Assembly (NCBI RefSeq): GCF_003633715.1
Contig: NZ_RBIE01000001.1
Coordinates: 791,331 to 855,330, forward strand
From: Thermovibrio guaymasensis
GTDB lineage: Bacteria > Aquificota > Aquificia > Desulfurobacteriales > Desulfurobacteriaceae
Reading direction: 5' to 3'
DNA length: 64,000 nt
Positions 41,775-63,637 of this stretch are shown here, one piece after another. The translations under genes and the position numbers were made by a program. The notes under the pieces were generated by a model, which saw only the letters and a program-made list of their open reading frames with translations, was not told where the DNA came from and searched no databases. Each line of letters begins with the position of its first letter. The stretch's first letter is position 1.

Positions 41775-42949
41775 AGAGAGAACTCCTGGCAGGAATAACG
41801 ACTTTCCTCACAATGTCCTACATCCTGGTTGTTAACCCGGCAATCCTCTCAAGCGCTGGAATGCCGAAGGATGGAGTTCTCTTCGCAACTGCAGTCTCTT
41901 CAGCCTTTGCAACGTTTCTAATGGGAGCTTACGCAAAACTCCCCTTTGCCCTTGCCCCTGGAATGGGACTTAACGCCTACTTTGCCTATACGGTCTGCGA
42001 CCAGATGGGCGTAAGCTGGAATACTGCTCTTGGTGCAGTGTTTATAGAAGGAATCCTATTTATAATTGGAGCTCTCTTTGGAGCAAGGAGAGCGATTTTA
42101 AAATTAATTCCAAAGAATATGGCCTACGGAATATCGGGAGGAATAGGTCTATTTATTACTCTAATCGGATTAAAAAACGCAAACCTCATTGAAAGTTCAA
42201 AGGAAACTATCCTAAAACTTGGAAACGTTACCTCCCCTGAAGCCCTTATAACTCTCTTTACCCTCCTCCTCATAGCTTTACTGGTAAATAAAAGAATTCC
42301 GGGAAGTTTGCTAATTGGAATAATTGTTTCAACGTTTCTAGGAATAGCCTTTCGAGAGGCACACCTTCCCAGCCATCTCATCGGACTTCCAAAACCTACA
42401 GCTGCAATGCAGATTGACTTTCAACACTTAATCTCAGTTTCAATTCTTCCTGTTGTCCTAGCCTTCTTAATTGTTGACGTCTTTGACACTGCAGGAACCC
42501 TATCAGCCTTGTGTACAAGACTCGGAATACCATTAACGGACAAAAGAGTTGAAAGAGCTCTAATGTGCGATGCAGCAGGAACTACAGTAGGAGCTTTCCT
42601 TGGAACTTCAACGGTGACAACTTACGTAGAAAGCGCTGCTGGAGTAGCTGCAGGGGGAAAGACCGGCTTAATGGCTATAACGGTTGGAGGTCTCTTTCTA
42701 CTTTCGCTCTTCCTCTATCCCTTAATTGAGGTAGTACCTACTTTTGCTACCTCCCCAGTTCTCATCTACGTTGGGTTCTTCATGGCCCAGAGCCTAAAGA
42801 ATATTGAATGGGAAAAGTTTACAGAATCCTTCCCGGCATTTATAACTTTTATTGGAATTCCCTTTACTTTCAGTATCTCTAACGGAATCTTAGCAGGATT
42901 TGCCGTTTACGGAGCTCTGAAGTTCTACGAAAAGTTAATCAAACATTAA
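41771..42949 (+). CDS. NCS2-family purine permease (AzgA/PbuG-like)
   Basis: A 392-residue transporter with about twelve to fourteen hydrophobic segments. LLAGITTFLTMSYILVVNP at the N terminus, APGMGLNAYFAYTV, VDVFDTAGTL and LGTSTVTTYVESAAGVAAGG are typical of the AzgA/PbuG hypoxanthine/guanine/adenine permeases. It is a little shorter than most (~430). It probably imports a purine with protons. The start is GTG 41771, overlapping the mutL stop by four bases. Confidence 0.9.
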   Translation: MKRELLAGITTFLTMSYILVVNPAILSSAGMPKDGVLFATAVSSAFATFLMGAYAKLPFALAPGMGLNAYFAYTVCDQMGVSWNTALGAVFIEGILFIIGALFGARRAILKLIPKNMAYGISGGIGLFITLIGLKNANLIESSKETILKLGNVTSPEALITLFTLLLIALLVNKRIPGSLLIGIIVSTFLGIAFREAHLPSHLIGLPKPTAAMQIDFQHLISVSILPVVLAFLIVDVFDTAGTLSALCTRLGIPLTDKRVERALMCDAAGTTVGAFLGTSTVTTYVESAAGVAAGGKTGLMAITVGGLFLLSLFLYPLIEVVPTFATSPVLIYVGFFMAQSLKNIEWEKFTESFPAFITFIGIPFTFSISNGILAGFAVYGALKFYEKLIKH

Positions 42950-52878: not shown

Positions 52879-53286
52879 TTAGGGCTCAATACCGGTAAAT
52901 ACCAACTTCCCGTGCTTTACTCCTTTAAGAGTCAAAAGCCTATCAGAAAGTTCCTTTAACTCACCAACTTTCCCCTTTACAGCTATTACCTCAAGACAGT
53001 GGTGGTGGTCTATGTGGATGTGCATCGTTGAAATTATGTTATTCAAGTAACTGTGCTCAATATCTGTAATCCTTTCGGTAAGCTCCTTTTGATGATGGTC
53101 GTAAACTAAAGTAATTGTTCCGAAGGCAAATTTATCCTCCTTCAAGTCCTCCTCTATGAGAGCTGCTCTTATTAAGTCCCTAACAGCTTCAGAACGGCTA
53201 ACGTAACCTCTCTTCTCTATAAGTTCTTCAAACTTAGTAAATAGCTTCTCATCAATAGAGACTGCAAACCTTACTAACTTTGCCAA
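52879..53286 (-). CDS. nikR: Nickel-responsive regulator NikR
   Basis: A 135-residue regulator. The N-terminal ribbon-helix-helix DNA-binding domain (LVRFAVSIDEKLF to RDLIRAALIEE) is followed by an ACT-like domain. H78, H89, H91 and C97 align, with a two-residue offset, to the four E. coli NikR nickel ligands (H76, H87, H89, C95), so nickel binding is expected. It fits an organism with several [NiFe]-hydrogenases. The start is TTG 53286 (LVRFAVS follows as in homologues), overlapping the upstream TatD gene. No nickel transporter is nearby; I could not find its operator. Confidence 0.92.
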   Translation of the reverse strand: MAKLVRFAVSIDEKLFTKFEELIEKRGYVSRSEAVRDLIRAALIEEDLKEDKFAFGTITLVYDHHQKELTERITDIEHSYLNNIISTMHIHIDHHHCLEVIAVKGKVGELKELSDRLLTLKGVKHGKLVFTGIEP

Positions 53287-54668
53287 TTCCTAAACCTCTT
53301 ATATGGTCTTATTCTATAGGGAACTCCCAGAGTCTCTGCCAATTTCTCAAAGTCGTCTTTATTAAAACCGGGATAATCAACAGCCGTAATTGTAACTTTA
53401 AAACCTTTACTGACCGCATCTTTAATAAACTTCAGTAGACTCTCCCAACTTCCTTTTCCAAAGGATGGCCTTACTACTTTATAGTACTCTTCAGGACTTG
53501 AAGCGTTAACGCTAACGCTAAAAGAATCCACAAGGCCTTTTAGGTGATCTAGTAAATCCTCCCTACCAGTTATGAGGTAACCAAGACCGCAGGTATCAAC
53601 CCTTATGGGAGTATCCTTTGAGAACTTTTTAATCCACTTTGCTATTTTCGTTAAGTCATCAAACCTTTCAAAGGGTTCACCGTAACCGCAAAAGACTATC
53701 TCATCGTAAACTTTTGGATTCTTAATCCTGTACATGTACTCTTCAGCTATGGGCTCCCTTTTGAGGTTTAAGTTATAGCCAAGTATGTAATCCTCAACTC
53801 CCCTAAAACAGAACTTACACGAACAAGGACATCTTGTACTAAGGTTTATATAGAGCCGATTACCTACCTTATATACAAGCCTCTCCCTCTTCTCCTCATC
53901 AGTTAAAGGGATACCAAACAGCCTCTTAGCATTAACGGTAGTTATCCTGTCGATATCGCTGAAAGAGAGGTTCAAATATTCAGAAATGACCTTTGCTGTA
54001 TAAGCAACGTAGGTTGGTTTATTTCTCCTGCCCCTTACCGGCTGAGGTGCAAGGTAAGGTGAATCGGTTTCAACTAAAAGTCTTGAAGAGGGAACGTACC
54101 TCAAAGTTTCCCTCAACTCTTCGTTCCTAGGATAGGTAACGGGACCGGCGTAGGAGATGTAGAGTCCCTCATCAAGAGCTGCTTCAAGGAGAACTTTTTC
54201 ACCGCTAAAGCAGTGAATAACTCCTTTTAATTCCCCTTTGAATTCCTTTTTAATAAATTCGGCCATCTCCTTAGCAGCATTTCTGGTGTGGATTATAACG
54301 GGCAAGTCTAGCTCCCTAGCTGCCTCAACCTGCATCTTAAAGATTTCGTACTGCTTCTCCTTGGGAGAGATGTTTCTATAGAAGTCAAGTCCCATCTCAC
54401 CGAGGGCAACTACCTTAGAAGAGCTCCTTACAATCTCAACCAACCTTTCATAGTCTTTCTCTGAGTAGTTCTTTGCCTCGTGAGGATGAATACCTACAGA
54501 GGCATAAATATTCCTCCCTTGACCGGCAACCTCTATGGCCTTTTTGCTATCCTCAAGGTCGCATCCAACCGTTATAACAGCATCAAGCTTTTCTTCACAC
54601 TCCTTAATTACCTCTTCCCTGTCCTCATCAAACTGAGGAAAGTGTATGTGTGCGTGGGTGTCTATCAA
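53274..54668 (-). CDS. TatD nuclease fused to a radical SAM domain
   Basis: A two-domain protein of about 464 residues. The first ~255 residues are a TatD metal-dependent hydrolase: DTHAHIHFPQFD with the HxH metal pair, SVGIHPHEAKNY, GEMGLDFYR, VIIHTRNA, VIHCFSG and VETDSPYLAP. From ~265 it is a radical SAM domain: the CxxxCxxC motif sits in RCPCSCKFCFRG (C284, C288, C291 counted from the GTG at 54680), then FCGYGEPFERFDD. TatD proteins are 3'-5' nucleases; the radical SAM substrate is unknown. I prefer the TTG at 54668 because GGAGG precedes it; the GTG at 54680 is the alternative. Confidence 0.88.
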   Translation of the reverse strand: MIDTHAHIHFPQFDEDREEVIKECEEKLDAVITVGCDLEDSKKAIEVAGQGRNIYASVGIHPHEAKNYSEKDYERLVEIVRSSSKVVALGEMGLDFYRNISPKEKQYEIFKMQVEAARELDLPVIIHTRNAAKEMAEFIKKEFKGELKGVIHCFSGEKVLLEAALDEGLYISYAGPVTYPRNEELRETLRYVPSSRLLVETDSPYLAPQPVRGRRNKPTYVAYTAKVISEYLNLSFSDIDRITTVNAKRLFGIPLTDEEKRERLVYKVGNRLYINLSTRCPCSCKFCFRGVEDYILGYNLNLKREPIAEEYMYRIKNPKVYDEIVFCGYGEPFERFDDLTKIAKWIKKFSKDTPIRVDTCGLGYLITGREDLLDHLKGLVDSFSVSVNASSPEEYYKVVRPSFGKGSWESLLKFIKDAVSKGFKVTITAVDYPGFNKDDFEKLAETLGVPYRIRPYKRFRNWQS

Positions 54669-55312
54669 TCCTTCCTCCACTTGAGTATGCTTTTGTAACC
54701 TGAGTTTAAGAGCTCCTTCCTAACGGCATTTGCCTCTTGCCAGCTCTTAAAATAGCCGACGATAACTCTTGCGTAATCACCTAAAAATTCAGTTTTTGCA
54801 TTGAATCCCTTACTCTTTAACTCACTTGCAAGCCTTACTGCATTTGCTCTGTTCTTAAAGACACCAACCTGAAGGTAGTAAAGCTTTTCTGCCTTTTCAA
54901 AAGTACCAGTGGACGACTCAGCCTTTAAGGTCCCTGTTCCTTGAGGTTTAGAGGAACTCTCCTTTTCCTCTACTTCTCCTACACTCTCCTCTGTTTGATT
55001 AGTTTGGGAAGGAGTAGCAACTGGTTCCTCCTCTTTAACAACTTTCTCACTTTCCTCACTCTTCTCCTTCTCCTCCACCTGTTCTTGCTCTTTAGGAGCC
55101 ACTATTTTTTCCTCTATTTGAGGCTGGGGTCTTGAAACGGGAGCTATACGGGCAAATGTTTTAACTATCTGTTTCTTCTCCAACTCGCACTTTGCCCTCT
55201 CCTCCTTTATACCAGCCTGCTTTCCAACAAAGTAGCCAACGGCGTAGGAAAAAACAAAAATAACAACGGTAGCCAAAGAAACTAAAATCACCAGTTTCCT
55301 ATCCCTCTCCAT
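54665..55312 (-). CDS. SPOR-domain membrane protein
   Basis: A 215-residue protein. A single N-terminal helix (LVILVSLATVVIFVFSYAVG) is followed by a long Glu/Lys-rich, low-complexity periplasmic linker (~65-130) and a C-terminal SPOR domain (LYYLQVGVFKNRANAVRLAS to the end) that binds denuded glycan at division sites. It resembles FtsN/DedD-type proteins. I place the start at ATG 55312, overlapping the argS stop as TGATG, with GGAGG upstream. It overlaps the TatD gene by four bases. Confidence 0.85.
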   Translation of the reverse strand: MERDRKLVILVSLATVVIFVFSYAVGYFVGKQAGIKEERAKCELEKKQIVKTFARIAPVSRPQPQIEEKIVAPKEQEQVEEKEKSEESEKVVKEEEPVATPSQTNQTEESVGEVEEKESSSKPQGTGTLKAESSTGTFEKAEKLYYLQVGVFKNRANAVRLASELKSKGFNAKTEFLGDYARVIVGYFKSWQEANAVRKELLNSGYKSILKWRKD

Positions 55313-57010: not shown

Positions 57011-59257
57011 ATGCGTTTAAAGGTAAATGTAACGGGAGTTGTTCAAGGGGTAGGTTTTAGACCCTTCGTCTACAGGCTTGCAAGAGAACTGAATCTAAAG
57101 GGTTTCGTTCTGAATAACGAACTTGGAGTAACGATTGAAGTAGAGGGAAGTAAGGAGAAACTAATTGAATTTTTAGGGAGACTTCAGGAGGAAAAACCTC
57201 CAGCGGCAGCAATTTACAGCATAAGCTCCCAGTTTCTTGAAGAGGTAGGGTACAGAGAGTTTGAAATTAAGAAGAGCCAGAAAGGAGGAGAAGTAAAGGT
57301 CTCTATTCTCCCAGACCTTGCAACCTGTAACGACTGTTTGAGGGAGCTCTTTGACCCTAAAGACCGAAGGTACCTCTACCCTTTCATAAACTGCACCAAC
57401 TGCGGACCAAGGTACACAATAATCCTCTCACTTCCCTACGATAGGGAAAACACAACTATGAAAGACTTTAAAATGTGCCCAGAGTGTGAAAGGGAGTACA
57501 ATGACCCTTTAAACAGGAGGTTTCACGCCCAACCAAACGCTTGTCCAGTCTGCGGTCCCCACGTTTGGCTTATTGATAGCCAAGGGAAGAGAGTTGCCGA
57601 AAGGGAAGAGGCAATAAAAGGCGTTGCCCAGTGGATTAGGGAAGGAAAGATAGTTGCCATAAAAGGACTTGGTGGTTTTCACCTTGTCTGCGATGCGACA
57701 AACGAAGAAGCCTTAAGGGAACTGCGCCTCAGGAAGAGGAGGGAAGAGAAACCCTTTGCGGTCATGTTTAAAGACATTGAACAGGTTAAGGAGTTTGCCC
57801 AAGTTTCCCCACTTGAGAAAGTTGCATTAAGGAGAGTTGAAGCTCCAATAGTCATTCTAAAGAGTAAGGGAAAACTCCCTAAAGAGGTTTCTCCAGATAC
57901 CCAGACTGTTGGAGCCTTCCTGCCCTACACTCCTCTTCACCACATACTCCTAAGGGAAGTAGGAAAGCCAATAGTAGCAACCAGCTGTAACCTAACAGAC
58001 GAACCAATTATGAAGGACAACGAAGAGGTTTTAAGGGAAGTTGGAAGACTCGTTGATGGAGCCCTCCTCCACAACAGGGAAATTGCCAGAAGGTGTGACG
58101 ATTCCGTTGTAAGGGTCATGGGAGGTAAAATTGTTCCAATAAGGCGTTCTAGGGGATTTGCTCCTCTTCCCATTCTCCTTCCCTTTAACCTTAAAAGGAG
58201 TGTTTTAGCCCTTGGCCCCCACATGAAAGTTACAGTAGCTCTGGGAAGGGAGAACAGGGTATATCTATCCCAGCACATAGGTGACGTTGACAACCTTAAG
58301 GCAGAGGAGTTCCTAAAGGAAACGGTTAGGGACCTTACTAAACTCTTAGAGGTTGAGCCTGAAGTCGTAGTCTGTGATTACCATCCCGGCTACTTTACAA
58401 CCAAGTGGGGAAAGGAGGAGTTTGGAAGGAAGTTGGTACAGGTTTACCACCACCACGCCCACGCAGTATCCGTCATGGCAGAGAACGGATTAGGAGTTGA
58501 TGAGAAAGTTATCGCTCTGACCTTTGACGGGACAGGTTACGGTCCCGACGGAACCATTTGGGGAGGAGAGTTTCTGATTGCCTCCTACACGGAGTTTAAG
58601 AGGGAGCTCTCCCTCCTTCCCTTTCCCCTTCCCGGTGGGGAGAGAGCAGTTAAGGAACCTTATAGAACGGCAGTATCACTTCTCAAGCTGTCAGGGTTAG
58701 AGCCAAGCGAAGTTTTAGGAGAAAGAAAAGAGGTAAACTTCGTATCCCAAATGGTTGAAAGAGGAGTAAACTCTCCAATTACATCAAGTATGGGAAGGCT
58801 CTTTGACGGAATTTCGGCAATTTTGGGTCTTAAGGAGAAGGTCTCTTACCAAGCCCAAGGAGCAATTATCCTAGAGGAGGTCGCCCTTAAAAGTTCAACT
58901 AAAGAGAGCTTGCCCGTGAAGGTTGAAGGGGACAAAATTGACTGGAGAGAGATGGTTAGGGAAGTTGTTAGGTTAAAAGAAAAGGGAGTTCCCGCTGAGG
59001 ACATAGCGAGAATGTTTCACAACTGGGTGGTTAAAGCCTCGGTAGAAGGAGTGAAAGAGCTCAGGGAAAAGTATGGGATAGAAAGGGTAGCCCTTTCAGG
59101 TGGAGTCTTCCAGAACAGGCTCTTAACGGAAACCCTCTCAGAAACCCTTAAAGGTGAAGGTTTTAAAGTCTTAACTCACCAACTGGTTCCTCCAAACGAT
59201 GGAGGTTTATCTTTAGGTCAAGCAGTTTACGGAGGACTGGTTGAAAAAGGTAGTTAA
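57011..59257 (+). CDS. hypF: Carbamoyltransferase HypF ([NiFe]-hydrogenase maturation)
   Basis: A 748-residue protein with the full HypF architecture. The acylphosphatase domain (GVVQGVGFRPFVYRLA, residues 9-24) is followed by two zinc fingers (CNDCLRELF with CTNCGPRYT; CPECEREYND with CPVCGP), a YrdC-like domain (KIVAIKGLGGFHLVCDA), and a Kae1-like domain with the metal site HHHAHAVSVM. It makes carbamoyl-AMP from carbamoyl phosphate and loads HypE for the CN ligands of the active site. It overlaps the next hydrogenase gene by 17 bases, tying maturation to that enzyme. ATG 57011 has GGAAAGAG. Confidence 0.96.
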   Translation: MRLKVNVTGVVQGVGFRPFVYRLARELNLKGFVLNNELGVTIEVEGSKEKLIEFLGRLQEEKPPAAAIYSISSQFLEEVGYREFEIKKSQKGGEVKVSILPDLATCNDCLRELFDPKDRRYLYPFINCTNCGPRYTIILSLPYDRENTTMKDFKMCPECEREYNDPLNRRFHAQPNACPVCGPHVWLIDSQGKRVAEREEAIKGVAQWIREGKIVAIKGLGGFHLVCDATNEEALRELRLRKRREEKPFAVMFKDIEQVKEFAQVSPLEKVALRRVEAPIVILKSKGKLPKEVSPDTQTVGAFLPYTPLHHILLREVGKPIVATSCNLTDEPIMKDNEEVLREVGRLVDGALLHNREIARRCDDSVVRVMGGKIVPIRRSRGFAPLPILLPFNLKRSVLALGPHMKVTVALGRENRVYLSQHIGDVDNLKAEEFLKETVRDLTKLLEVEPEVVVCDYHPGYFTTKWGKEEFGRKLVQVYHHHAHAVSVMAENGLGVDEKVIALTFDGTGYGPDGTIWGGEFLIASYTEFKRELSLLPFPLPGGERAVKEPYRTAVSLLKLSGLEPSEVLGERKEVNFVSQMVERGVNSPITSSMGRLFDGISAILGLKEKVSYQAQGAIILEEVALKSSTKESLPVKVEGDKIDWREMVREVVRLKEKGVPAEDIARMFHNWVVKASVEGVKELREKYGIERVALSGGVFQNRLLTETLSETLKGEGFKVLTHQLVPPNDGGLSLGQAVYGGLVEKGS

Positions 59258-60413
59258 AATTGAAGGAATACCTCTAACCGAAGGACACTCTGGGCTCTTC
59301 TTAAAAGTTGAAGAAGGAGTTATTGAAGAAGGGCTTTACTACGCCCTCGTTCCGGTGAGGGGGTTTGAAACCCTCCTCATTGGAAAAGATGCAAAATCGG
59401 CTCCAATAATAACGAGCAGGATATGTGGACTGTGTCAAATTACCCACTCAATAGCCTCTTCAAGGGCAATAGAGGAAGCCTGTGGAATAGAAGTTCCCCC
59501 CGAGGCAGAAGAGCTGAGGGAAGTCTTAGGTTTGGCAGTTAGGGTGTACAACAACCTTCTCCACCAGATAATCATATCTGAGGATCTATTTCCGGAGAAA
59601 ATACTGCAGCTTGACTTTATACGTAAAGTCCAAAGGGTTAGAAGGTTTATAGGGGAAGTACTTGAGAGTATAGGTGGAGAGATTATCCACTCTCCAAACG
59701 TGGTTGTTGGAGGAATATCTGAACCGCTAGAGGAAATCGTAAGGGAAAGAATACTTTCACAGATTGATGAGGTTTTTAAGGAGCTCCAATCCCTGTATAG
59801 GGAATTTGAAGAAGCGATAAACCAAATGTGGAAAAGAGAAGGTCTTCCGGAAGACTTAGGGAAACACGACCTTGACTTCCTTGCAACTGATAAGTTTTAC
59901 TCCGGCAAGATTGAAATTGACGACTTTTCTTTTCTAACGCCTCAGGAAATTTTGCCAGAAGAACTAAAGACGAGAGCTTCCAACCTCTTTCCCCTTTACA
60001 AGGGAAAGCCGGTAGAGACTGGACCGAGGGCAAGAAAGGTTCTTTTTGACGGGTATAAACCGAAAGGGGGAGTTAAGGAGCTTCACATTCTAAGGGCAAA
60101 AGAGAACCTAGAAGCCCTTAAGAGGATAAAAGAAATACTGGAAGAGAAGAGGTTTAATGGGGAGCTCTGGAACAGAGAATCACCTACGGGAGACGGGGAA
60201 ACTCTAGGAATAGGCGTCCATGAAGCCCCAAGGGGAACTAACGTTCATGCAGTTAAAATTGATAAACGAGGAAGAATATTATATTATAAAATTGTAGTAC
60301 CTACTGAGATAAACCTATTTGCAGTTAGCAGGGCTTTAAAGGGAGAAAGGGCAAGCTGGGCCGAGTTCATAGTTAGGGCTTACGACCCGTGCATCGTCTG
60401 TGCCTCTCACTGA
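59241..60413 (+). CDS. Group 3 (Frh-like) [NiFe]-hydrogenase large subunit without C-terminal peptide
   Basis: A 390-residue large subunit. The first Ni-binding motif is RICGLCQITHS (RxCGxCxxxH) near residue 60. The second is DPCIVCASH, and the stop codon follows directly after its His. Most large subunits carry a further 15 or so residues that an endopeptidase removes; none exists here. The nearest relatives by arrangement are FrhA/MvhA-type enzymes (large, small with two ferredoxin clusters, FrhB-like). Its start is TTG 59241 after GGAGG, inside hypF. It should activate H2 in the cytoplasm and pass electrons to the next two subunits. Confidence 0.88.
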   Translation: MKKVVKIEGIPLTEGHSGLFLKVEEGVIEEGLYYALVPVRGFETLLIGKDAKSAPIITSRICGLCQITHSIASSRAIEEACGIEVPPEAEELREVLGLAVRVYNNLLHQIIISEDLFPEKILQLDFIRKVQRVRRFIGEVLESIGGEIIHSPNVVVGGISEPLEEIVRERILSQIDEVFKELQSLYREFEEAINQMWKREGLPEDLGKHDLDFLATDKFYSGKIEIDDFSFLTPQEILPEELKTRASNLFPLYKGKPVETGPRARKVLFDGYKPKGGVKELHILRAKENLEALKRIKEILEEKRFNGELWNRESPTGDGETLGIGVHEAPRGTNVHAVKIDKRGRILYYKIVVPTEINLFAVSRALKGERASWAEFIVRAYDPCIVCASH

Positions 60414-60429: not shown

Positions 60430-61167
60430 ATGTTTTTTAAGGATAAAATTCTAAACGAAGAAGAACCTAAGCTCAGCATCGGTTTCTTTCACCTCTCCAG
60501 TTGTTCTGGATGTCAGGTAGCATTCTTAGACATGTTTGAAGCCGCAGTTGAAATACTTGATACCGTTAAGCTCGTCTACTCCAACATGCTTACCCGCCAG
60601 AAGGAAATTCCTTACCTTGACGTTGCCTTCGTTGAAGGAGCACTTTGTCTTGAAGAGCAGCACCATCTGAACCTAATTAGGGAGCTCTCTGAAAAGAGCA
60701 AAATAATAGTTGCAATAGGAGGGTGTTCTTCATTTGGTGGAGTTAGAAGGTTTTCATGTGGGAACCAACCTCCTCAACCTCAACATCAGTCCTTTGTTCC
60801 TATAACTGAAGTAGAACTCCTAAAAGGAAAGGTTAAATACGCAATTCCTGGGTGTCCCCCAAACTCCTCACTCCTTTACAACTTCCTCCTTGCTCTCCTT
60901 GAGCTTAACGATGACTTCCTTCAACCTTTTGAAATTATGGCCCTATCAAAAAAGGCCTCCGGATTTGACGTAATAGCAGAAGTAGTTAATAAGGGGTTGT
61001 GCGTAGGATGCGGAACGTGCTCAGCAGCGTGTCCAACGAGGGCAATCTCCTTTAAAATAGAGTGTGCCAAACCTTCTTTTAATCCATCAATTTGTGTTCA
61101 CTGTGGCTCTTGCCTTGCAAGCTGTCCACAGAGCTTTAAACCTTATCCACAACCTACTTATACTTAA
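60430..61167 (+). CDS. Group 3 hydrogenase small subunit, FrhG-like, with two 4Fe-4S clusters
   Basis: A 245-residue protein. The N-terminal SSCSGCQVAFLD binds the proximal cluster, with CSSFGGVRR and YAIPGCPPNSS supplying the other ligands. The C-terminal ferredoxin-like part has CVGCGTCSAACP and CVHCGSCLASCP. This is the FrhG architecture. No Tat signal is present, so the enzyme is cytoplasmic. It follows the large subunit after 16 bases with a GGGGAG site and precedes the FrhB-like gene by 11 bases. Confidence 0.88.
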   Translation: MFFKDKILNEEEPKLSIGFFHLSSCSGCQVAFLDMFEAAVEILDTVKLVYSNMLTRQKEIPYLDVAFVEGALCLEEQHHLNLIRELSEKSKIIVAIGGCSSFGGVRRFSCGNQPPQPQHQSFVPITEVELLKGKVKYAIPGCPPNSSLLYNFLLALLELNDDFLQPFEIMALSKKASGFDVIAEVVNKGLCVGCGTCSAACPTRAISFKIECAKPSFNPSICVHCGSCLASCPQSFKPYPQPTYT

Positions 61168-61178
61168 GAGAGGTAAAG

Positions 61179-62078
61179 TTGCTCAGCCTTAATGAGAAGT
61201 TCTTAATAGGAAGCTACAAGAAAGTCTTCCTCGTGAAGAGTCAACGGGGAAATCCGGTAGAAACCTTATTTAAACTGATGCTTGAGAACGGCTTAATTGA
61301 TGGGGTTTTAACCTGTAGTGAGAAAAAGGGTAAAGCTACCCCTTCCCTCTTTCTGAAGGCCAACCAAGTGAAGGTAAATCCTTTAAATAGCTACTTTGGA
61401 ATAAATACCCTTTTAAAAAGGGCCCTTCAGAAGTACAGGTTAAACAAACTTGTCGTATTTGCTCCTCCTTGCGTTTTTGATGAACTTAACAAAACCCAGT
61501 ACTTTGGAATAGGCAGTAACTGGACAAAAACTGCGGTAGCTCTGAAAGTAGGGCTCCTCTGCACAGGAGCTCTAACTGAAAACTCCCGACAGCTAGAGGC
61601 AATTCACTTAACAGGAAAAAAGGAAAAAGTCAAAAGGTTTTTCTACGACAGGGCAAACCTCGTTTACCAGCTTGAAAGCAATAGGGAAATTATTGTTCCT
61701 GTTAATGTCCACCATAAGTACATCCTTACTGCATGTCGTTACTGTCTAAACATGGGAGCAAAGGGAACGGACATAACGTACGTTCCTAAAAAAGAGCCAA
61801 ACGAAGGCCTTTTCATAGTTAGAAGTGAAAGAGGTTGGTACACAATAGCCCAAGTTCAAAAAATTGCCCCTGCAGACCTTAAACTGAGAATATCAGAAAA
61901 GGAAGAAACAGAAGAACTCGTATCGCTCCTCAGGGATAAGAGCCTTCTTAACGTAAATGACATCCTTGAAAGGGTAGAACTTGGCTTACCTACTCCAAAG
62001 TGGAGCGATAACAAACTGAGGAAGTTCTACAGAGCCTGGAACAGCATTGAAGGAAACTTTGAAGAGGAGGTGTTCTAA
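61179..62078 (+). CDS. FrhB-like iron-sulphur flavoprotein subunit
   Basis: A 299-residue protein of the F420-hydrogenase/dehydrogenase beta-subunit family. It has VVFAPPCVFDELNK, GLLCTGALTENS and the C-terminal LTACRYCLNMGAKGTDIT, a form of the CxxC...G...DI motif seen in FrhB proteins. The family binds FAD and Fe-S and reduces F420 in methanogens; in bacteria without F420 it may use another low-potential acceptor such as ferredoxin. The start is TTG 61179 after GAGGTAA. It overlaps the regulator gene by one base. No F420 genes are in the window. Confidence 0.82.
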   Translation: MLSLNEKFLIGSYKKVFLVKSQRGNPVETLFKLMLENGLIDGVLTCSEKKGKATPSLFLKANQVKVNPLNSYFGINTLLKRALQKYRLNKLVVFAPPCVFDELNKTQYFGIGSNWTKTAVALKVGLLCTGALTENSRQLEAIHLTGKKEKVKRFFYDRANLVYQLESNREIIVPVNVHHKYILTACRYCLNMGAKGTDITYVPKKEPNEGLFIVRSERGWYTIAQVQKIAPADLKLRISEKEETEELVSLLRDKSLLNVNDILERVELGLPTPKWSDNKLRKFYRAWNSIEGNFEEEVF

Positions 62079-62365
62079 TGATTACTTACGAGGAAGTATC
62101 TGAAAGGGAACTTCTAGAGAAGGCCGAACTTTTAAAAGTTCTCGGTCATCCTGAGAGGCTGGCAATAGTTCTCCTAACACTCAACGGAGAAATGTGCGTC
62201 AAAGACATCGTTGAAACTTTGGGAATTTCGCAGCCAAAAGCGTCCCAACACGTTGGTCTCATGAAGGAAGTAGGACTTTTAACCTTCAGAAAGGAGGGAA
62301 CGAAGGTACTCTATAGAGTAAACAACGAAATCGTTAAGGAAATTATGGAGATCTTATTTAGCTAA
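62078..62365 (+). CDS. ArsR-type winged-helix regulator
   Basis: A 95-residue regulator: VLGHPERLAIVLLTL, DIVETLGISQPKASQHVGLM (recognition helix) and GTKVLYRVNNEIVKEI. In classic ArsR metal sensors the alpha-3 motif is ELCVCDL. Here it is EMCVKDI, with only one Cys, so that metal site is not complete and the signal is unknown. It is coupled to the FrhB-like gene (overlap of one base, GAGGAGG upstream) and lies just before the promoter of the second hydrogenase. I infer control of one or both hydrogenases. Confidence 0.85.
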   Translation: MITYEEVSERELLEKAELLKVLGHPERLAIVLLTLNGEMCVKDIVETLGISQPKASQHVGLMKEVGLLTFRKEGTKVLYRVNNEIVKEIMEILFS

Positions 62366-62439
62366 AAAGCAAAGCTTAGGTAAACGCAAAATTTGGAGTA
62401 AAGCCTCAAATATAAGGAAATTTTTATATTATTTGGTTT

Positions 62440-62484: not shown

Positions 62485-62513
62485 TTGACTTTCGATTAAA
62501 GCTGGTCTAAAAT
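62485..62513 (+). promoter_or_regulatory. Predicted sigma-70 promoter of the group 1 hydrogenase operon
   Basis: TTGACT (62485-62490) and TAAAAT (62508-62513) have an ideal 17-base spacer. The leader to ATG 62558 is about 38 bases and includes a GAGGAGG ribosome site. Confidence 0.7.
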
Positions 62514-62557: not shown

Positions 62558-63637
62558 ATGAATAGAAGTCTTTTCCTGGGGGGAATTCCCAAAACGATCT
62601 CCCGTAGAGGGTTCCTGAGAGCCTGTGCAATAGCTACCGCAGCTATGGGTTTACCTATGGAAATGGTTCCTAAGGTAGCTGAAGCTGCCTCAGACCCGAA
62701 AAGGCCTAGCGTTGTTTGGCTTCATTTTCAGGAGTGTACCGGCTGCTCAGAATCCCTCTTAAGAGCATCCCACCCAGACTTAGCGACTCTCATCCTTGAC
62801 CTTATCTCACTTGACTACCACGAAACCCTTGCAGCTGCTGCAGGAAAGCAGATGGAGGAAAACCTAGAAAAGGCAATTGAAAGGGGTAATTATGTCCTAG
62901 TGGTTGAAGGAGGAATTCCCCTTAAGGACGGAGGAATTTACTGTAAAATCGCAGGAAAAACGGCAGTAGAGATTCTCAAGAAAGCTTCTGAAAAGGCACT
63001 GGCAATCATCGCAATCGGAACCTGTGCTGCTTACGGTGGAGTTCAGGCTGCAAAGCCGAACCCAACAGGGGCCGTTGGAGTTTCCGAAATTATTAAGGAT
63101 AAACCTATAATTAACGTACCTGGATGTCCTCCAAACCCACACAACTTCCTTTCAACGGTTCTCTACTTCTTAACGTTTAAGAAACTTCCGCCAACAGATA
63201 AGTTTGGAAGGCCTCTGTTTGCCTACGGAAGGAAAGTTCACGACCACTGCGAAAGAAGGCCTCACTTTGACGAAGGAAGGTTTGCAGAAAGGTTTGGAGA
63301 CGTTGGTCACAGGCTCGGATTCTGTCTCTACAAGGTCGGCTGTAAGGGTCCAGAAACTTACTCCAACTGTCCAGTAATTAGGTTTAACGACGTTGAAGTA
63401 TGGCCTGTATCTGTTGGAAACGGATGTTACGGATGTACAGAGCCAAACTTCTGGGATACAATGACTCCGTTCCATAAGAGGCTTCCAAACGTTAAGATTC
63501 CTGGTGGAAAAGGTATCCAAACAAGTGCAACACAAATTGGTAAGGCTGCTCTCGGCGTAACTGCCGCAGCAGTAGCTATCCATGCCGGCGTAGGAATAGC
63601 AAAAAGACTAGCAACCGGATCAAAGTCTGAAGAGTAA
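62558..63637 (+). CDS. Periplasmic group 1 [NiFe]-hydrogenase small subunit
   Basis: A 359-residue small subunit. It has a twin-arginine signal (SRRGFLRACAIATAAMG) and a mature part with HFQECTGCSESLLRA (proximal cluster), GTCAAYGGVQAA, NVPGCPPNPHNF, HDHCERRPHFDEGRF (His-ligated distal cluster), CLYKVGCKGPETYSNCP (medial/distal clusters) and GNGCYGCTEPNFWD. A hydrophobic C-terminal helix (AALGVTAAAVAIHAGVGIA) suggests anchoring in the membrane. It passes electrons from H2 into the respiratory chain. The large subunit follows after 29 bases. Confidence 0.95.
   Translation: MNRSLFLGGIPKTISRRGFLRACAIATAAMGLPMEMVPKVAEAASDPKRPSVVWLHFQECTGCSESLLRASHPDLATLILDLISLDYHETLAAAAGKQMEENLEKAIERGNYVLVVEGGIPLKDGGIYCKIAGKTAVEILKKASEKALAIIAIGTCAAYGGVQAAKPNPTGAVGVSEIIKDKPIINVPGCPPNPHNFLSTVLYFLTFKKLPPTDKFGRPLFAYGRKVHDHCERRPHFDEGRFAERFGDVGHRLGFCLYKVGCKGPETYSNCPVIRFNDVEVWPVSVGNGCYGCTEPNFWDTMTPFHKRLPNVKIPGGKGIQTSATQIGKAALGVTAAAVAIHAGVGIAKRLATGSKSEE

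Follow-up and report, generated by a model that had tools for sequence, protein, structure and literature searches.

A FrhAGB-type [NiFe] hydrogenase of Desulfurobacteriaceae with a large subunit encoded without a C-terminal extension and an ArsR-family partner gene: a possible H2-responsive regulatory hydrogenase

The large subunit of [NiFe] hydrogenases is normally produced with a C-terminal peptide, which holds the protein open for Ni insertion and is then cut off by a specific endopeptidase. Groups 2b, 2d, 4c, 4e, and 4g, Ech among them, are described as naturally tail-less in PMC7294309, and the list given in PMC12134894 is the same but without 4g; moreover, an engineered tail-less membrane-bound hydrogenase still matured, with a lower yield (PMC7294309). 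Group 3a, that of the methanogen F420-reducing hydrogenase FrhAGB, is absent from the lists of tail-less groups in these two papers, and a full-text search of the open-access literature for group 3a combined with C-terminal extension found no paper. Here we describe an FrhA-like large subunit encoded without this extension (frhA, positions 59241–60413, + strand) in a stretch of 64,000 nucleotides from Thermovibrio guaymasensis (contig NZ_RBIE01000001.1; the whole stretch is called the window below). The tail-less state is conserved in the family Desulfurobacteriaceae and, as far as sequences tell, defines a clade in the 3a lineage that is new relative to those lists. A gene for an ArsR-family regulator constantly follows the hydrogenase genes, and we tentatively read the enzyme as an H2-responsive regulatory hydrogenase.

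The open reading frame of frhA (390 amino acids) starts with TTG, with GGAGG 5 nt before the start, and ends with VRAYDPCIVCASH followed by TGA; the last residue is the His of DPCIVCASH (His390; codons plus stop, 60384–60413, +). Reading past the TGA gives eight codons (IGENLDVF) and then TAA, and this DNA is the ribosome-binding stretch of frhG, the ATG of which lies at 60430. An earlier note on this DNA had described the stop directly after the His and had judged the eight codons not to be an extension, and both points are confirmed. In the NCBIfam frhA model, which spans 412 positions, the protein stops at position 395. Among 136 Aquificota genomes, 22 of them from Desulfurobacteriaceae, full-length close relatives of frhA (51–100% identity, own genome counted) were found in 20 of the 22 family genomes and in all seven genera, the two negative genomes being only 83% complete each, and the best match outside the family had 32% identity (E 2.9e-27). 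A scan of genome contigs for relatives retrieved ten family loci and one Lokiarchaeota locus, and a plasmid search retrieved solely hydrogenases of <60% identity. All 20 family sequences end at the same His, and no family homologue carries an extension. Because this common end is set by three stop codons (TGA in 9, TAA in 9, and TAG in 2 sequences) and the DNA beyond is dissimilar, the missing tail is a real, conserved property of the family. An artefact, in which a sequencing error, frameshift, or recoded stop conceals the tail, might draw on a TGA inside the HydA frame of the same genome that looks recoded (see the end of the text); the 20 ends at the same codon, the three stops, and the dissimilar DNA past them nevertheless rule out a base error or recoding here and leave such an artefact a negligible probability.

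By far the best model for the protein was NCBIfam frhA (TIGR03295, 360.4 bits; next model, 104.6 bits), although its equivalog cut-off of 392.5 was not reached, and the best relatives of solved structure were methanogen FrhA proteins (349.4, 289.6, 289.3, 252.4, and 250.5 bits) and MvhA (155.5 bits). In a maximum-likelihood tree of 29 large subunits, which covered 14 of the 20 family FrhA, held no group 2b or Thermococcus sequence, and had long branches in its Ech-like, Loki, and 3c-like rows, the 14 FrhA formed a single clade (100/99), sister to two methanogen FrhA (99/99) and apart from the group 1, 3b, 3c-like, and Ech-like large subunits of the same genome. The tree thus places the protein in the FrhA lineage of group 3a in spite of its score below the equivalog cut-off. 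FrhG and FrhB partners with their Fe–S cysteines are likewise present, though both score under the corresponding equivalog cut-offs, whereas the cleavable extension with its own protease is missing: all 20 family sequences are tail-less, and no HycI-type protease gene lies by frh itself. A tail-less large subunit is shared with group 2b, whose HoxBC/HupUV is tail-less yet matured by the Hyp proteins (PMC7294309); HoxBC/HupUV, however, signals through a histidine kinase as part of a two-component system (PMC6367845), and the present protein is of another lineage, its best model being that of FrhA and its place in the tree, which lacks 2b sequences, being with FrhA. No kinase domain was detected in the 16 neighboring proteins scanned with Pfam, the rest of the genome not having been searched for one. 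The methanogen FrhAGB has the same three subunits and the same FrhB fold, but its FrhA is made with a tail of 17–19 residues (chain A of PDB 3zfs has 405 residues versus 386 in 4ci0; in chain A of 9r51, of 410 residues, the match stops at 393). Since methanogen FrhA and the group 1, 3b, and 3c-like large subunits of the same genome all have tails, loss of the tail in the Desulfurobacteriaceae stem is the simplest reading, with few outgroups behind it. A second Aquificota family has another extension-less clade, ending in D(L/V)CSVCT plus two residues (loci L034, L038, L039, and L043; labels with L, C, and G denote loci, contigs, and genomes). This clade groups with the T. guaymasensis group 1 large subunit (98/94 in the tree), and we presume that it may correspond to group 2d.

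Genes for the cofactor-assembling machinery are at hand. The 3' end of hypF (57011–59257, +; TIGR00143, 864.6 bits, cut-off 466.1), encoding the carbamoyltransferase for the cyanide ligands of the [NiFe] cofactor, overlaps the start of frhA, and genes for HypA and a HypB-type GTPase lie after the group 1 hydrogenase genes (hyn). The genome encodes two HycI-type proteases, one after hyn and one after a 3c-like hydrogenase with a tailed subunit; the earlier note had proposed checking for endopeptidases matched to the group 1 enzyme alone, and the second protease is not so matched. For the 22 family genomes, 31 HycI-type matches were listed; these neighbor frh only where a whole hyn cluster follows it, and those of four genomes labeled g4 lie some 38 kb from frh or on different contigs. 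Because no HycI-type protease gene accompanies frh itself, and FrhA is made in the processed form, the proposal that it matures without tail cleavage is well supported by the gene content. Such maturation is not exotic, as groups 2b, 2d, 4c, 4e, and 4g do likewise. Ech and CooH (groups 4e and 4c) share the tail-less state (PMC7294309) but are membrane complexes of another lineage, and the Ech-like large subunit of T. guaymasensis is also tail-less, ending in CTAR. Thus, the missing tail alone does not mark a sensor, and the sensor-like role suggested in the earlier note does not follow from it; support for such a role comes instead from the ArsR-type partner, the lack of CofD, and the literature.

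The redox chain from the active site to FrhB looks functional, judging from residue conservation. Both active-site motifs, RxCGxCxxxH and DPCxxCxxH, are invariant in 15 aligned FrhA sequences, the former being represented here by RICGLCQITH (codons at 59418–59447, +; both Cys and the His invariant in 15/15 rows). The frhG-like small subunit with two ferredoxin motifs (60430–61167, +; TIGR03294, 240.3 bits, cut-off 245.5) has 12 Cys residues invariant in 20/20 sequences, a number that would suffice for three [4Fe-4S] clusters, and the frhB-like subunit (61179–62078, +; TTG start; PF04432, 39.5 bits), for which the best PDB profile matches are FrhB, has four (20/20). Its AlphaFold model (mean predicted local distance difference test score 83.4, two poor segments) has the FrhB fold, with template modeling (TM) scores of 0.72–0.80 against five FrhB chains and 0.60–0.64 against a sixth (3zfs_C). 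Across the family, frhB diverges faster (29–69% identity to that of the window) than frhA, frhG, or arsR, as though selection on the acceptor site were weak or shifting.

F420 is an unlikely acceptor, because CofD of the F420 pathway was found in none of the 22 family genomes (the same search scored over the cut-off in 3 control genomes; CofC, CofE, and CofG were not searched) and the CofH-model matches that were rescanned are MqnC or MqnE. Such matches occurred in 22/22 family genomes at E 0.001, 3 of them over the cut-off, and had suggested F420 use; all six rescanned, namely three of the T. guaymasensis genome and the three over the cut-off, scored best as MqnC or MqnE, and the suggestion was set aside. 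This agrees with the statement published for T. ammonificans (PMC5441870). The lack of CofD and the ArsR gene inside the unit set the system apart from the methanogen FrhAGB. Two tandem genes for MqnE-type aminofutalosine synthases, both over the TIGR03700 cut-off, were seen in the T. guaymasensis genome at C1:732265–734368 (L078, 366–2469).

The conserved redox-chain cysteines would suit an ordinary metabolic hydrogenase, reducing ferredoxin or thioredoxin, that has lost its tail and whose ArsR merely adjusts its own operon to redox, sulfur, or metal. The authors of the T. ammonificans study propose work with ferredoxin (PMC5441870), and the extension-less Ech is energy-converting (PMC7294309). 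In the reported proteomes, however, FrhAGB was undetected in Desulfurobacterium thermolithotrophum HR11 (PMC12724263), and Frh was the one hydrogenase group missing in T. ammonificans (PMC5441870); furthermore, inspection by eye revealed no conserved inverted repeat upstream of hypF or frhA, so that autoregulation of frh is not evident. We regard this metabolic explanation as plausible, though not as the one to be preferred. The same two proteomes and the fast divergence of frhB might also be taken to indicate a decaying relic, the missing tail being a sign that the hydrogenase has ceased to mature. This is very improbable, given that the active-site and cluster cysteines are invariant in the alignments and the frame is free of inner stops in 20/20 sequences.

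The start codon of arsR (62078–62365, +; NF033788, 82.8 bits, cut-off 55; PF01022, 39 versus 22), encoding an ArsR-family winged-helix regulator, overlaps the frhB stop codon in the window. In each of the 20 genomes with frhA, arsR directly follows frhB, and the unit frhA-frhG-frhB-arsR stays together, with a single arsR cut by a contig end (G122, first 34 codons shown). The group 1 operon, beginning with hynS for the small subunit (62558–63637, +; TIGR00391, 484.8 bits, cut-off 179.5) and continuing with hynL from 63667 past the window end, follows in 12 of the 17 loci readable past arsR. The unit is unbroken in the four g4 genomes, with no hypF or hyn within the 12–19 kb read (little upstream being readable in G127), and G115 is the fifth locus without adjoining hyn. 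New here is the constancy of arsR after frhB in 20/20 genomes, including the four in which the unit stands away from hypF and hyn. The two frhA-negative genomes, each 83% complete, yielded no ArsR orthologue (at least 59% identity) but only 43% paralogues.

ArsR/SmtB members often bind metals, and the invariant residues of this ArsR, namely E17, H24, E38, and H58 besides Cys40, the sole invariant Cys (19/19), are possible ligands. The protein could thus be a nickel or other metal sensor for the hydrogenase genes, FrhAGB having no signaling role. We consider this unlikely: there is a single Cys, arsR pairs with frhB and not with hyn, and the window already contains, about 6 kb from frhA, a gene for NikR, which usually serves as the nickel regulator (52879–53286, −; PF08753, 114.6 bits).

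A likeness is offered by the FrhAGB of Thermococcus onnurineus, a non-methanogen Frh, where the regulator concerned, SurR, is ArsR-like. Thermococcus Frh is reported to oxidize H2 and to reduce thioredoxin reductase (TrxR) upstream of SurR, a hydrogenase regulator, and a regulatory role has been suggested (PMC10025317); in T. onnurineus, deletion and overexpression of frhA altered other genes (PMC6367845). The suggested link to a redox-switched regulator (PMC10025317, PMC6367845) is the common point; in Thermococcus, SurR is reached via TrxR and Pdo. Closer to T. guaymasensis, HydBCDA and Ech of strain HR11 were 10.5–17.7-fold and 7.8–15.2-fold more abundant at low H2, Hyn was 2.5–3.1-fold more abundant (HynC not at Padj 0.01), and the [FeFe] hydrogenase was partly opposite in its response (PMC12724263). 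A keyword search of the main text of that paper showed no H2 regulator (PMC12724263).

On the strength of the constant ArsR partner, these H2-dependent hydrogenase levels, and the role suggested for Thermococcus Frh, we favor, with a likelihood close to even, an FrhAGB-type hydrogenase whose large subunit is made already processed and which acts as an H2-responsive regulatory hydrogenase of group 3a descent. Presumably, the Hyp proteins would insert Fe(CN)2CO and Ni without a cleavage checkpoint, as in the H2-sensing hydrogenase. Electrons from H2 oxidation might then pass via FrhG and FrhB to a thiol relay of the thioredoxin type or straight to ArsR, where Cys40 or a bound ligand would change state, and the hydrogenase operons (hyn, perhaps hyd-ech) would be tuned to the H2 supply. 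Several points weigh against this regulatory role. Each step from the hydrogenase to ArsR is deduced; the absence from the proteomes may mean no expression under those conditions; an ArsR encoded next to a hydrogenase might serve as a switch for metal or sulfur; Ech, that of the same genome included, is tail-less too and is no sensor; and the two genomes lacking frhA are incomplete. The distribution of the candidate operator, described next, adds further difficulties.

Between arsR and hynS lies an AT-rich inverted repeat, ATATAAGGAAATTTTTATATTA (62410–62431, strandless), a candidate operator with the consensus ATATAAAGAATTCYTTATATTA; 11 of the 20 stretches read before hynS contain it. It is followed by a sigma-70-like promoter (TTGACT, 17 nt, TAAAAT; 62485–62513, +), which the aligned hynS upstream stretches share, apart from the disrupted G115 stretch. 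Exact matches to the operator pattern in the 22 genomes numbered 15, of which 13 were before hynS in 11 genomes; as the hyn sites themselves supplied the pattern, which finds them by construction, the useful part of this count is that just two matches lie elsewhere. With one mismatch at most, there were 43 matches, in which one palindrome may count twice (both strands), versus 13 for a reversed control pattern. A similar but weaker sequence occurs before hydB of the 3b-Ech cluster, the best site reaching p ≤0.05 in 11 of 18 upstream regions (leave-one-out matrices and dinucleotide shuffles; the G122 stretch is 91 nt, and related genomes are not independent) and missing p 0.05 in G116, G117, G118, G120, G123, G128, and G132. 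Several of these hydB-upstream sites partly overlap the −10 box. Moreover, a site within one mismatch is lacking before hyn in G128 (shuffle p 0.293), in G123, which is a complete genome (p 0.285), and in all four g4 genomes (p 0.036 to 0.51); the matrix behind these hyn p-values includes the tested sites. When sites were ranked over 116 kb of the T. guaymasensis genome, the hyn site and another at 42042 came ahead of both hydB-upstream sites. With evidence this mixed, an operator shared by hyn and hyd-ech is a lead only. In G115 (L140, 435–458; L085), the hynS upstream stretch has no inverted repeat and holds a repeated sequence, whereas the frh contig carries an exact match to the operator pattern roughly 1.2 kb beyond arsR. 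The repeat and hynS may have been separated by a rearrangement.

The extension-less clade of the 3a lineage, beside its tailed relative, provides a natural before-and-after pair for asking what the tail is for. If the ArsR link is true, the locus would be a candidate for H2-dependent control of hydrogenases in Desulfurobacterium without a histidine kinase.

A parallel was met in Asgard archaea. In the Lokiarchaeota locus, the large subunit ends at the His, and a neighboring HdrA starts with a winged-helix domain (L054, 2628–7212). Of the best 30 Asgard loci from 148 genomes of the phylum, chosen as the best matches to this first locus and not as a random sample, 24 end at the His, one has an 11-residue tail, two have 7-residue tails, and three have an altered motif. 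The winged-helix HdrA was present in all 18 upstream regions fetched from these 30 loci; because three tailed and two altered loci are among them, the tail-less state and the domain do not fully coincide. In 23 of the 24 tail-less subunits (the 24th was not read), Gln replaces the His of the first motif. The Asgard unit (also L142–L189), in which HdrA-FlpD is fused to the winged-helix domain and a [NiFe] hydrogenase lies alongside, looks like a hydrogenase-linked DNA-binding complex. These helix-turn-helix (HTH)-HdrA hydrogenases resemble the present system in being mostly tail-less and in having a DNA-binding domain linked to the complex; they differ in the 3b/3c-like large subunit, the fusion of the domain to HdrA, and the Gln in the first motif. 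The parallel suggests that linkage of hydrogenases with DNA-binding domains may have arisen more than once. The far-reaching version, in which FrhAGB-ArsR is a co-encoded H2-sensing switch setting the levels of the group 1, 3b, and Ech enzymes in Desulfurobacteriaceae and exemplifies, with the Asgard HTH-HdrA, a recurrent route of group 3 to tail-less DNA-linked sensors, is in our view doubtful.

Two further observations concern coding sequences of T. guaymasensis. A single open reading frame in the window (53274–54680, −) encodes a TatD-type DNase (PF01026, 278 bits) fused to a radical SAM domain (PF04055, 69 bits). The group 3b-type HydA (C1:393552 onward; L011, 7553–8850) reads RAYDP-TGA-IACAVH plus a 14-residue tail, and the TGA at the first Cys of the motif is a selenocysteine candidate. 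One in-frame TGA was present in the HydA-type match of 13 family genomes, and none in that of the four g4 genomes.

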